From Eudoraea adriatica DSM 19308 (GTDB taxonomy: Bacteria > Bacteroidota > Bacteroidia > Flavobacteriales > Flavobacteriaceae), in NCBI RefSeq assembly GCF_000382125.1, contig NZ_KB907548.1, forward strand, positions 62,001-126,000: a DNA stretch of 64,000 bases, read 5' to 3'. Position numbers and translations under genes: made by a program. Below, in pieces: positions 3,125 through 7,056 of the stretch. A model generated the notes under the pieces. The model had not been told where the DNA came from. It ran no database searches and saw nothing but the letters and a program-made list of their open reading frames with translations. How positions within the stretch are numbered: position 1 is the stretch's first letter; each line of letters starts with the position of its first letter.

Positions 3125-3796
3125 TTAGATGAAGCCCCTGTTTCGGGACTCGGTGATCAAGGCCTGATCATTCTGTTTTTCAACACCAAATACTGCTTTT
3201 AAGTGCCTTTTCCTATTTTCGATACTTGGAAGTGATAAGGAGACATGGTTAACCATATCTTTAGTTTTAGTGCCTATTGACAAATAGTGGAGAATTTTTT
3301 TGTCCTTCTCATCCAGAACTATATCGTCATTGGCCATTTTTTTTCGAATAGCTGCCAGAGCTTTTTGAGTGTAATAGGGGGGATTGTTCATTACGGTCAG
3401 GACCATTGCCTGCAGCGACTTTTGATCTATTTCGGTTTTTACCATATACCCTTCGGGATCCACTGTTTTTAGAATGCTGTTTATTCGGTAATTGTCACTA
3501 AATGAAGACATAAAGACTATTTTGGTCTTTGGAATAACCTTGCGGGCGATTATCCCGATATCTTCGCCTGTTTTCGCAGGGCTTTCAGTGGCCTGTGCTA
3601 ATTGAATATCCAATAAAAGAATATCGTAGAGAAATGAATTAACCGAATTTTCAATTTTTTCAATAGCCTGCTCAAAGGATTTAGCTGTATCCACGAAAAC
3701 CTTGAAATCATCAAATGCTGTGTCCTCCAGAATAAATTTATAACCCAAGGTGGTCATTTCGTGATCATCTACCGCTAAAATCCGTACTGTTTTCAT
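3125..3796 (-). CDS. NarL/LuxR-type response regulator
   Basis: This is a two-component response regulator, expected to be phosphorylated by the kinase encoded just upstream. The receiver domain spans residues about 4-130, with the acidic pair VDDH (10-11), the phospho-acceptor Asp63 in LLLDIQ and the conserved Lys120 in GYMVK. A C-terminal helix-turn-helix (about 155-220, from LDEKDKKILHYLSIG) resembles the LuxR/GerE type but is divergent. The start overlaps the kinase stop codon by 4 bp, so the two are translationally coupled and form a cognate pair. The length (223) is normal for NarL-type regulators. Target genes are not evident; the neighbouring 48-residue lipoprotein gene is a candidate. 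Confidence 0.9.
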   Translation of the reverse strand: MKTVRILAVDDHEMTTLGYKFILEDTAFDDFKVFVDTAKSFEQAIEKIENSVNSFLYDILLLDIQLAQATESPAKTGEDIGIIARKVIPKTKIVFMSSFSDNYRINSILKTVDPEGYMVKTEIDQKSLQAMVLTVMNNPPYYTQKALAAIRKKMANDDIVLDEKDKKILHYLSIGTKTKDMVNHVSLSLPSIENRKRHLKAVFGVEKQNDQALITESRNRGFI

Positions 3797-5901
3797 GATG
3801 AAGCTTTTTCTGCTATTTTAGATTTGATATTTTCGTTAACCCGACTTAAATTTTCAGATTCCATTAACTCGTATGGCACTTGCACGGTTACCACAGTTCC
3901 TTTTCCAGGCGTGCTCTTTATTTTCCATTCCCCGTTTAATTTGTGTACCCGGGAAGTTATATTTTTATGTCCAATACCTTTTTTTGTTTTACTATTATTA
4001 AAGCCCTTCCCATCGTCTTTCAGGGTAACTTTAAGCAAAAGATCGGCTAAGTCTAGTTTCAGATTAACCTTATTAGCGCAGGCATGTTTAATACAATTCT
4101 GAAGGCTCTCCTGGATGATTCTGTAGAGGTTAATTTTAATATTTCCACTTAAAGCATCCCAGTCAAAACCTTCATCATATTCTAAGTTATAATCAATATT
4201 TGCTGTTCCGCAAATGCCCTTTAGTAAATCTTCGATGGATATTATAAAGTTATGGAATTTTTGATAAGAAGCATCGTTTAATTCATGAGAAATTGAACGT
4301 ATCTCCTCCTGCACCGCTTGTAGTTTTTCAATTGCCTCTCCACGCATACTTATGGCATTGTCATCTGCTTTTTTGTTTAAACCCAGCAACATCATGCGAA
4401 TACCATTCATTTGCCCTAATATACCATCGTGCAGTTCCTCTGAAATTCGTTTTTGTTCAGATTGTTTTCCCTCTTCCATTTTTTGACTCTGGGCAAGCAT
4501 GAGATTAAATATCTCCTGGTTTGACTCTTGTTGCTGCTGCTGAAATCGCAGGTTTCGGTTTTTTGCGCGCTGGGAAATGATAACCACAACGGAAACAGCC
4601 AGTAAAAAAAGGCCTATGGCAATTCCTATCCAAAGCTGCCTTTGCCTGGCTAAAAGCTGGTTTTCGGCTATAAATTCATCGGTTTCAAAACGTATCCGGG
4701 CAAACTTATTTCTAATCTTTCGATCTTCTTCCTCTAAACTGTCATTTAATACCAAATACTCGGTAAGGTAGGTCTGTGCATTTTCGGGGTCTATTTTAGG
4801 GTAGAGTTTTAAGATATCGAGAATGAGTTCATTATCATTATTTCGTTGTGCAAGAAGAAAGGCTTCATCTATTTTAACCCTGGCCCGGGAAGTGTCTTTT
4901 TTAGTAAGGTAGTATTCCGCCAAATGGTAATGATTCATGGGAATTTCTCCTAAGTTATTCTCCTTTAAATTAATTTCCAGAGCCTCTTCAAAAAGTGCTG
5001 CGGCATTCCCGGAACTCCCGGATTTAAATTCAGAATAAGCAAGATTGTCCAGGGCAAGGGCATAGGACCCCGGGTTTTTATAGATTAAACTATCTGCATT
5101 TAACAATTTGCTGAAGTAAGGTGTAGCTTTTACATAATCTCCCTTTTCCTTGTACAAATTCCCAATATTGTTGTCCAGTGTGATTTGACGGTTTCGCCTT
5201 AATTCTTGTGATTCTATGTTCCGGATATATTCCCCGGCCTTTTCAAAATAGTCACGGGATTGTTCAAATTCTCCGAGGCTTTTCGCAATAGTGCCCAGCA
5301 GGTTATATAGCAAAAAAAGCTGGTCAAACCTTTCATACGGTTTGAGGAATTGAATGGCTCTTATAGCAGTGCCTTCAGCTCCGGTATAGTCCTTTATGTC
5401 CTTTTGAATAACCGACATACTATATAATACCAAGCCTCTGCTTAAATTATCCTTAAGGCCAACATAAAGTTCCTCTGCCTGCCCGTACTCATAGTAAGCA
5501 CTGTCTTTAATAAAAAAATTAAAATAAAAATCTCCACGGTCCCAATGGAGGCCGGCGCGCACAACAGAATCTTTAATTTCTTCGGAAAGCAGTATTGCTT
5601 TATCGTTGACCTTTCTGAAGTTTACGGAATCCTTCAAGGTAAGATATACCAAAGAGAGCTCGGATAAATAATGCAGGCGCAATGAGTCATTGGAATTTCC
5701 AACAATTTCTTTATAGGCCTTTTGCAAAAACTCCTTTCTGACTTCTATAGGAAGTGTTGCATCTGTCCCATTTTTAATCCATATGGCGGTGCTGTCTGAA
5801 CCGGAATTTGAACTATTAAAGTAGGGGGCTTGCTTTTTTTGTTTACAGGCAAAAAAAAGCAGGAAAAGACTTAACAGGGCTATATATTTTTTGTTAATCA
5901 T
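3793..5901 (-). CDS. TPR-containing sensor histidine kinase (HisKA_3 type)
   Basis: This is an inner-membrane sensor kinase of 702 residues. The N-terminus is a signal peptide with a lipobox-like FFAC (Cys19). Residues about 60-400 form tetratricopeptide repeats, which would lie in the periplasm. A single membrane segment spans about 423-443 (WIGIAIGLFLLAVSVVVI). A short coiled coil leads to a NarX-like dimerisation domain with the phospho-acceptor His491 in ISEELHDGILGQ, followed by a HATPase_c domain with an N box (IIQESLQNCIKH), G1 (DDGKGF) and G2 (GIGHKNI). It overlaps the downstream response regulator by 4 bp. The TPR domain suggests sensing through a protein or peptide partner. A strong terminator separates it from the upstream peptide gene. 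Confidence 0.92.
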   Translation of the reverse strand: MINKKYIALLSLFLLFFACKQKKQAPYFNSSNSGSDSTAIWIKNGTDATLPIEVRKEFLQKAYKEIVGNSNDSLRLHYLSELSLVYLTLKDSVNFRKVNDKAILLSEEIKDSVVRAGLHWDRGDFYFNFFIKDSAYYEYGQAEELYVGLKDNLSRGLVLYSMSVIQKDIKDYTGAEGTAIRAIQFLKPYERFDQLFLLYNLLGTIAKSLGEFEQSRDYFEKAGEYIRNIESQELRRNRQITLDNNIGNLYKEKGDYVKATPYFSKLLNADSLIYKNPGSYALALDNLAYSEFKSGSSGNAAALFEEALEINLKENNLGEIPMNHYHLAEYYLTKKDTSRARVKIDEAFLLAQRNNDNELILDILKLYPKIDPENAQTYLTEYLVLNDSLEEEDRKIRNKFARIRFETDEFIAENQLLARQRQLWIGIAIGLFLLAVSVVVIISQRAKNRNLRFQQQQQESNQEIFNLMLAQSQKMEEGKQSEQKRISEELHDGILGQMNGIRMMLLGLNKKADDNAISMRGEAIEKLQAVQEEIRSISHELNDASYQKFHNFIISIEDLLKGICGTANIDYNLEYDEGFDWDALSGNIKINLYRIIQESLQNCIKHACANKVNLKLDLADLLLKVTLKDDGKGFNNSKTKKGIGHKNITSRVHKLNGEWKIKSTPGKGTVVTVQVPYELMESENLSRVNENIKSKIAEKASS

Positions 5902-5940
5902 AAAACAACTTGGAAACTAATGGCTCCTATATTACAATAT

Positions 5941-5974
5941 AAATAAAAAGCCTTAAATAGCATATTTAAGGCTT
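5941..5974 (-). terminator. Rho-independent terminator of the 48-residue peptide gene
   Basis: A perfect 12-bp stem (arms 5948-5959 and 5963-5974, AAGCCTTAAATA and its complement) with a 3-nt loop is followed, on the minus strand, by TTTTTATTT. It lies about 60 bp after the peptide stop and about 40 bp before the kinase start, so the peptide gene probably has its own transcript. Confidence 0.85.
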
Positions 5975-6032
5975 CTTATTTGGTAAGGTATGTTGCGTTT
6001 ATATTCTATACTTTAATACTCAATTTTAAAAA

Positions 6033-6179
6033 TCATCCACCTCTATGTACTATTGGGGTATCGTCCCCACCGGTGGCTTGTTCATATAAGGCCTGGTCTT
6101 CGGCACTGTTATCTGCTTCACAGGAAAATAATCCCATACTGAATACTGCTATTGCGAAAATGCTTAAAACTTTTTTCAT
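6033..6179 (-). CDS. 48-residue secreted lipoprotein-like peptide
   Basis: This small ORF reads ATG to TGA with a textbook lipoprotein signal: Met-Lys-Lys, a hydrophobic core (VLSIFAIAVFSMG) and the lipobox LFSC with Cys20. The mature product would be a 29-residue, mostly acidic lipopeptide that begins CEADNSAEDQ and ends HRGG. It lies between a LytTR regulator and the TPR kinase/NarL regulator pair, all on the same strand, and is closed by a strong terminator. Short lipoproteins of this look are common in flavobacteria, but I know no characterised function. A role as a ligand or target of the neighbouring kinase is only inference. The overlapping plus-strand frame lacks such features. Confidence 0.8.
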   Translation of the reverse strand: MKKVLSIFAIAVFSMGLFSCEADNSAEDQALYEQATGGDDTPIVHRGG

Positions 6180-6324
6180 CGTTTAAAATTTTTAAGGGGT
6201 TAAATAATGTTGACTAGCTTGATACTAAACTAGCAGCAATCCCGAAAGACTATTGTGTAAAAAAAAGAATATTAGTGAACGGCCTACTTCTGTGAGTATT
6301 TGTGGCGTTTTTAGAAGGATTTGA

Positions 6325-7056
6325 TTATTTGGAGGGAGAAATGGTGTTTTTTGAAAGAATTTTTTTTAAACCTTCAATATTTTCCTTGTAGGTTTTGGTA
6401 AATGGGAGTTTTGTTTTACTGACTTTTAAGAAACATAAAGACTTACCATAATTAATTCCTGAAACAAAGTTAGTATTCAGGATATAACTTTGATGGATTC
6501 TTATGAAGTTTGCTGGCAAACGATTTTCAAAGGATTTAAGCGTTTTATAGGCACTAACAATATTGCCGTCTTTCATTATAAAATCTGTCGCATTATTGTC
6601 TGCCTTTAAATACAATATCTCATCAGTATCAAGATATTGGTAATCATTGTAAGATTTCAGACAAAGGGTATGGGAGACATCTTCTTTTGGCAGTTGTTTT
6701 TTTAATCGCAACAAGGTCTTGCGAATATCAAATTCATTGTAAGGCATCAGCCAGTAATCAAAGAAATTGTTTTTAATGGCATTGTAGGCGTACTCCTTGC
6801 TTCTGGAAATCCCAATTAATATTGGAATGTTTTTAACATACTGATATAATTCTGTCACCATCTGAAAATATTCAAAAGCCTTGTCGTTCAGATTAATAAA
6901 AACAACATCAGGGGTGTATTTGAGAATAGCATTTAAGCCGTCCGAGCAGTTTCTGGCTTCGCCGGAACACACAAAATCTCCATAGTCCTCTAAATAGTGC
7001 TGTAACTGCAAATTTGAGGTGGCGTCGGAATCAATAATGGTATAAGAATACTCCAT
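6325..7056 (-). CDS. LytTR regulator with pseudo-receiver domain
   Basis: This 243-residue protein has a receiver-like domain (residues about 4-125) and a C-terminal LytTR DNA-binding domain (about 140-238, with DEILYLKADNNATDFI and FIRIHQSYILNTNFV). In the receiver the acidic pair is kept (Asp9, Asp11), but the phospho-acceptor position is Asn55 (VVFINLND where VVFLDI is usual). Classical aspartyl phosphorylation is therefore unlikely and it may be constitutive or ligand-controlled. It is the first gene of a co-directional cluster with the 48-residue lipopeptide and the TPR kinase/NarL regulator, but 145 bp separates it from the peptide gene. No histidine kinase partner is adjacent in an operon. 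Confidence 0.88.
   Translation of the reverse strand: MEYSYTIIDSDATSNLQLQHYLEDYGDFVCSGEARNCSDGLNAILKYTPDVVFINLNDKAFEYFQMVTELYQYVKNIPILIGISRSKEYAYNAIKNNFFDYWLMPYNEFDIRKTLLRLKKQLPKEDVSHTLCLKSYNDYQYLDTDEILYLKADNNATDFIMKDGNIVSAYKTLKSFENRLPANFIRIHQSYILNTNFVSGINYGKSLCFLKVSKTKLPFTKTYKENIEGLKKILSKNTISPSK

Follow-up and report, generated by a model that had tools for sequence, protein, structure and literature searches.

The subject of this study is a gene cluster of Eudoraea adriatica DSM 19308, situated at positions 3125-7056 of a 64,000-nucleotide stretch of contig NZ_KB907548.1 (positions 62,001 to 126,000; the whole stretch is referred to below as the window), in which a short open reading frame (ORF) of 48 amino acids precedes the gene of a sensor histidine kinase with a tetratricopeptide repeat (TPR) domain. 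All elements lie on the minus strand, and their coordinates are given in window numbering. In the order of transcription they are a LytTR-type regulator gene, the 48-aa ORF, a hairpin terminator, the TPR/HisKA_3/HATPase kinase gene and a response regulator gene; the five co-directional elements described in a first-pass annotation of the sequence were thus all located. The genomes nearest to the window belong to the genus Eudoraea, and the arrangement LytTR, peptide, kinase, regulator, glyA is shared by Eudoraea, Zobellia, Maribacter, Muriicola, Flagellimonas and other genera. Loci of this kind are called glyA-linked below.

The 48-aa ORF (6033-6179) encodes a predicted exported lipoprotein and putative propeptide with the lipobox FSC at Cys20. 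Its C-terminal core, ATGGDDTPIVHRGG (6036-6077), is present in a single copy here and corresponds to the segment that is repeated in tandem in relatives. The kinase (3793-5901) begins with a lipobox signal of its own (LLFFAC), followed by the TPR sensor (approximately 4666-5724), a transmembrane (TM) segment (approximately 4582-4653), the HisKA_3 domain with His491 and the HATPase domain. The response regulator (3125-3796), assigned with Pfam and NCBIfam, has intact Asp63 and Lys120, whereas the LytTR-type regulator (6325-7056) has a degenerate receiver with N55 in place of Asp and M104 in place of Lys. LytTR (56 bits), HisKA_3 (26.6) and HATPase_c (36.9) scored above the Pfam cut-offs; both receiver domains scored under theirs.

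The phospho-acceptor His of the kinase is conserved in all 82 sequences compared and the Asp and Lys of the response regulator in all 81, the residues expected of an orthodox two-component system, and on this basis the kinase and the downstream regulator are taken to be an intact pair. In the LytTR receiver the phospho-acceptor column contains N in 76, H in two and S in one of the 79 orthologues, so the Asp of a phosphorylation-controlled regulator is missing. Control of the LytTR protein must therefore be of another kind. The earlier description of the locus as a three-regulator signalling cluster calls for a qualification, as the usual phosphorylation is not available to the LytTR protein.

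Three direct repeats with a 21-bp period (6315-6321, 6294-6300 and 6273-6279 in plus-strand coordinates) precede the peptide gene, and the conserved -7-like element TAGTTTAG (6225-6232) lies 3' of them; both were recognized in an alignment of 16 promoters. Among offsets of 6-45 bp, 21 bp gave by far the strongest identity over all glyA-linked intergenic stretches, in a score that is inflated by relatedness. Repeats set two helical turns apart are suited to LytTR proteins. They are probably a site through which the peptide gene is regulated, and the LytTR protein, whose gene is adjacent, may bind there. The hairpin between the peptide and kinase genes (5948-5974) resembles an intrinsic terminator, and such a terminator was found at 64 of 77 loci and not at the other 13. 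After it and before the kinase gene a TAnnTTG-type element was noted by eye (TATATTG, 5935-5941, possibly the -7 element of a kinase promoter), and a similar element occupies the same place in orthologues. The peptide and the kinase are probably made from separate transcripts because the kinase gene has this element after the terminator.

Conservation of the peptide gene and its coupling to the kinase

Comparison of the 48-aa ORF with its close Eudoraea homologues gave dN (nonsynonymous) values of 0.035-0.14 and dS (synonymous) values mostly of 0.4-0.9; between Eudoraea species the change was mainly synonymous, as in a comparison with dN of 0.035 and dS of 0.69. An exported small ORF is present directly upstream of the kinase at every one of the 79 orthologous glyA-linked loci for which the upstream DNA is complete, the opposite of the lack of conservation beside homologous kinases that the first-pass annotation had named as evidence against its proposal. 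Since dN is well under dS and the ORF is kept in the same place at all these loci, it is a real gene under purifying selection and not a chance ORF.

The export signal varies between lineages. A type II signal was recognized in the window peptide and in most of its glyA-linked relatives, and the lipobox Cys is absent from Maribacter and most Flavobacterium peptides. The proposed export and lipidation at Cys20 is predicted for the window peptide, but lipidation is not general in the family. In the Maribacter group (L091, L099, L109, L110, L116, L127-L151) the peptide lacks this Cys, and in most members a CxxC form of the core replaces TDGDD. The window peptide matched the PG1828 family lipoprotein model (NCBIfam NF050142) at 21.3 bits, through the signal peptide only, against a cut-off of 50 bits.

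In the test that the first-pass annotation had proposed, the link between such ORFs and TPR/HisKA_3 kinases was clearly above chance in several counts. In eight genomes a peptide matching the profile was found upstream of 17 of the 19 kinases close to the profile (a wording used here in place of clade) and at none of the 11 TPR kinases further from it; when the lipobox pattern was relaxed, three of these 11 controls were hit as well, none of them with a match to the peptide profile. A phylum-wide draw gave a peptide gene upstream of 23 of 24 kinases within Flavobacteriaceae and no credible peptide gene at the kinases outside the family (L245-L249). In Flavobacterium, 49 of 55 kinases have a small peptide gene in the same slot, encoding sequences unrelated to the glyA-linked ones. 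For further genera, where a first single-sequence search had returned little or nothing convincing, a prediction test found an exported small ORF upstream of 9/9 kinases and of 1/5 weaker kinases. The control genes of the same loci had such an ORF upstream in 104 of 784 cases, in comparison to 77 of 85 kinases.

The coupling was also recovered from the side of the peptide: at 40 loci drawn by the peptide profile alone, with the kinase unused, a kinase lay directly downstream in 33. These loci include clusters elsewhere in the genome whose kinase is only 22-27 % identical, and judged from such comparisons the coupling extends beyond the synteny of a single locus. Eudoraea G003, a genome of 100 % completeness, has neither peptide nor kinase. 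In Flavobacterium and the other genera, 73 of 74 loci have a response regulator downstream of the kinase, and 53 of the 74 have a LytTR-type gene upstream of it.

Repeated cores and the predicted sensor fold

Tandem C-terminal cores, in approximately 1.5 to 10 copies, were found in 41 arrays, belonging to 19 of 80 glyA-linked peptides and 22 of 49 Flavobacterium peptides. Zobellia barbeyronii carries ten copies of STDGDDVQIDRRGS, the last differing by one residue, and the same core has six copies in one further Zobellia genome, seven in another and a single one in Z. uliginosa DSM 2061. The core TDGDDTPTDDRQS is repeated five times in a Robiginitalea metagenome-assembled genome and CDDCSHDKDEREA eight times in Maribacter arenosus, and wholly different cores, for example IIGGNATGGNMKLD in six or VSGSGAARSTKLD in five copies, are present in Flavobacterium and other genera. 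At some loci the whole peptide gene is multiplied (three copies at L204 and five at L237). A sub-family of kinase-linked peptides from many genera (L180-L194) has tails such as ACCGDDGEIPPPPPPPP, Cys-Cys or long proline runs. Neither the shuffled tails nor the 392 neighbouring proteins examined contained comparable tandem repeats.

Codon differences between adjacent copies in the 41 arrays were synonymous in 351 cases and nonsynonymous in 156, against an expectation of 23 % synonymous under random change. This excess indicates that the peptide sequence of each copy was held while its DNA drifted. A count restricted to exact units (199 synonymous vs 8) is biased by the patterns used, and the array count was relied on. 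Judged by these features the product of the small ORF looks like a propeptide.

The same data bear on the idea that the ORF is a leader peptide or attenuator, of which only the translation matters, the terminator serving as a switch for the kinase gene. A short ORF followed by a terminator has the appropriate layout, but the signal peptide and core show repetition and conservation at the protein level, most codon changes from copy to copy are synonymous and 13 of the 77 loci have no visible terminator; we find this explanation hardly credible. It is very improbable as well that the ORF encodes a repeat protein of calcium-binding, structural or antimicrobial function whose place beside a kinase is incidental. 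The DGDD-rich cores do resemble DxDGD calcium loops by eye, but Flavobacterium cores such as IIGGNATGGNMKLD have no DxDGD-like motif, the repeat peptides gave no match above cut-off in Pfam or NCBIfam, and the link to the kinase is kept across paralogous clusters.

The peptide might otherwise be an output only, that is, an abundant small envelope protein that never touches the kinase and whose gene is one of the chief targets of either the kinase pathway or the LytTR protein. Its own promoter, the strong terminator and the conserved regulator repeats fit a highly expressed, regulated product. What this explanation leaves unaccounted for is the fixed place of the gene beside the kinase while the core changes completely between genera, and the multiplication of the core with conservation of its protein sequence, and we regard it as unlikely.

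For the sensor of the window kinase a TPR superhelix in the periplasm is predicted. The TPR sensor named in the first-pass annotation is borne out, at the level of prediction, by agreement between Pfam and a model of an orthologous sensor (L126), which forms a TPR superhelix. When this model was compared with the PDB, LGN with bound peptides gave Z of approximately 28, and the best matches after it were two receptors of quorum-sensing peptides, RapI (25.7) and NprR (25.2); likeness of fold does not establish likeness of function. Sequence identity among Eudoraea species is 58-60 % in the TPR part, in comparison to 89-95 % in the dimerization and histidine phosphotransfer (DHp) domain and 90-93 % in the response regulator.

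For AlphaFold2 modelling the L126 peptide, the intergenic linker and the sensor were translated in one frame as a single chain with stops read as Gly. The predicted local distance difference test score (pLDDT) of the two core blocks was 72 and 60 with the sensor present (flanks 34-47), and 58 and 51 without it (flanks 50-61). This contrast lends weak support to a contact between core and sensor.

Several further arrangements were seen at related loci. At L284 (3533-14611), L123 and L132 between two and four TPR kinases stand in tandem; at L284 one kinase resembles one neighbour in the TPR domain (70 %) and another in the DHp domain (79 %), as if sensors had been swapped. In paralogous clusters the peptide gene adjoins a divergently transcribed gene for a protein with a helix-turn-helix-like N-terminus, one TM segment and a C-terminal domain (L038 5392-6183, L044 5448-6140, L045 5309-6037, L041 6882-7772, L172 5028-5780, L188 6758-7447); at L172 and L188 this protein is present and the kinase absent. 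A second small-lipoprotein family, ending in DNLYQDQSPKLSDIKVPTNG, forms six tandem genes approximately 201 bp apart at L157 (4389-5647) and also occurs at L196 (6513-6698). Its neighbours are genes resembling tsaE and alanine dehydrogenase and one for a TM protein of approximately 170-180 aa, with a PorX-like regulator also near L196; no TPR kinase was found at these two loci.

A candidate propeptide-ligand system

The reading that we favour, with moderate confidence and on genomic evidence, is that the small ORF encodes a precursor from which the adjacent TPR histidine kinase receives its peptide ligand. The signal peptide, of type II here and without a lipobox in Maribacter and most Flavobacterium, would export the precursor, and the C-terminal core of approximately 11-16 residues would be exposed, or released by proteolysis, inside the periplasm or outside it. 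By occupying the groove of the superhelical TPR sensor in the periplasm, the core would alter autophosphorylation at His491, upwards or downwards, and phosphotransfer from His491 to Asp63 of the downstream regulator would carry the response. The peptide may act within the periplasm in which it is made or between cells. Its level of transcription would probably be set by the phosphorylation-blind LytTR protein through the 21-bp-spaced repeats. The first-pass annotation had left the peptide as either the ligand or the main output of the kinase pair; the repeated cores and the sensor fold favour the ligand over the output as the more probable role.

A number of observations weigh against this proposal. 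The type II signal would keep the window peptide membrane-bound unless it is cleaved. No recognisable peptide was found at a few close kinases (L210, L221, L253, L319 and L320). The AlphaFold2 signal for the core is small and was judged from pLDDT, which also rises with conservation. The peptide-linked kinases are not a clade: in a FastTree phylogeny of catalytic domains they were not monophyletic, and the controls were mixed with the paralogous group. Nor was specific co-evolution of peptide and sensor upheld, as the partial Mantel r given flanking genes was 0.23 and that of an unrelated neighbour gene 0.22.

Membrane attachment would suit a watchdog of the envelope, in which the peptide is a lipoprotein comparable to RcsF or NlpE and the kinase of the same cell reads its trafficking or folding state; the core would be the contact, and its repeats would raise avidity. 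The type II signal of the window peptide and most glyA-linked relatives and the lipobox of the kinase itself agree with such a role, for which the ligand need not leave the cell. The Maribacter and most Flavobacterium versions, however, have no lipobox, and cores that are multiplied and differ between species are more typical of signals, which makes a watchdog rather unlikely.

The closest functional parallel to the propeptide-ligand reading is offered by the RRNPPA quorum-sensing systems (Rap-Phr, NprR-NprX, PlcR-PapR, AimR-AimP). These share with it a superhelical TPR domain of five to nine repeats, a range into which the L126 sensor model falls, and a small gene for a Sec-exported propeptide adjoining the receptor gene. 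Among them, propeptides carrying multiple peptide copies have been described, as has the presence of several propeptide ORFs (PMC9765709); the 41 arrays are the counterpart here, where the repeat unit presumably corresponds to the mature peptide. The known RRNPPA receptors, however, belong to Firmicutes, are cytosolic and have no kinase part; they act as DNA-binding regulators or phosphatases and bind re-imported peptides, whereas the receptor proposed here is the periplasmic sensor of a transmembrane kinase (signal peptide, TM, HisKA_3, HATPase) of Flavobacteriaceae with the peptide gene upstream, and re-import by an oligopeptide permease would be needless. By analogy the system would work like RRNPPA pheromones but is not a member of that family, because its receptor is a transmembrane kinase and its hosts are Flavobacteriaceae.

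The nearest known protein by architecture is FimS of the Porphyromonas gingivalis FimS-FimR system, a Bacteroidota kinase with eight TPR motifs in its periplasmic domain, followed by a TM segment and the kinase part, whose signal is unknown (PMC11053733). The window kinase scores 44.3 bits over residues 243-455 with the FimS model NCBIfam NF053520, whose cut-off is 600. In the Gram-positive peptide two-component systems (Agr, ComABCDE, Blp) an exported precursor, a kinase and a regulator are encoded together and LytTR-type DNA-binding domains are used. The window cluster has the same components, including a LytTR-type domain, but no processing ABC transporter or AgrB-like protein was seen in it, its sensor is a TPR and not a polytopic membrane domain, and its kinase is of the HisKA_3 type with a partner other than the LytTR protein. 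The best solved fold match, the TPR of LGN/Pins with Inscuteable, NuMA or FRMPD4 peptides, illustrates that a multi-TPR groove binds extended peptides; LGN/Pins is a eukaryotic cell-polarity protein, and only the fold is in common.

In a wider form the proposal would describe pheromones throughout Flavobacteriaceae: multi-copy propeptides would be cut, and lineage-specific peptides with pherotype-like cores would pass between cells and be read by periplasmic TPR kinases. This extension is tentative, and we hold it to be somewhat less probable than its negation. No description of such a system was found in the literature covered, which did not include subscription journals and preprints.

TPR histidine kinases occur in many Bacteroidota, and for a large group of them the present analysis points to a candidate gene for the ligand in a constant position. 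The core repeats yield short peptide sequences ready for synthesis. If binding holds, multi-copy propeptide signalling would reach a Gram-negative family, and RRNPPA-like TPR recognition would be linked to transmembrane two-component signalling.

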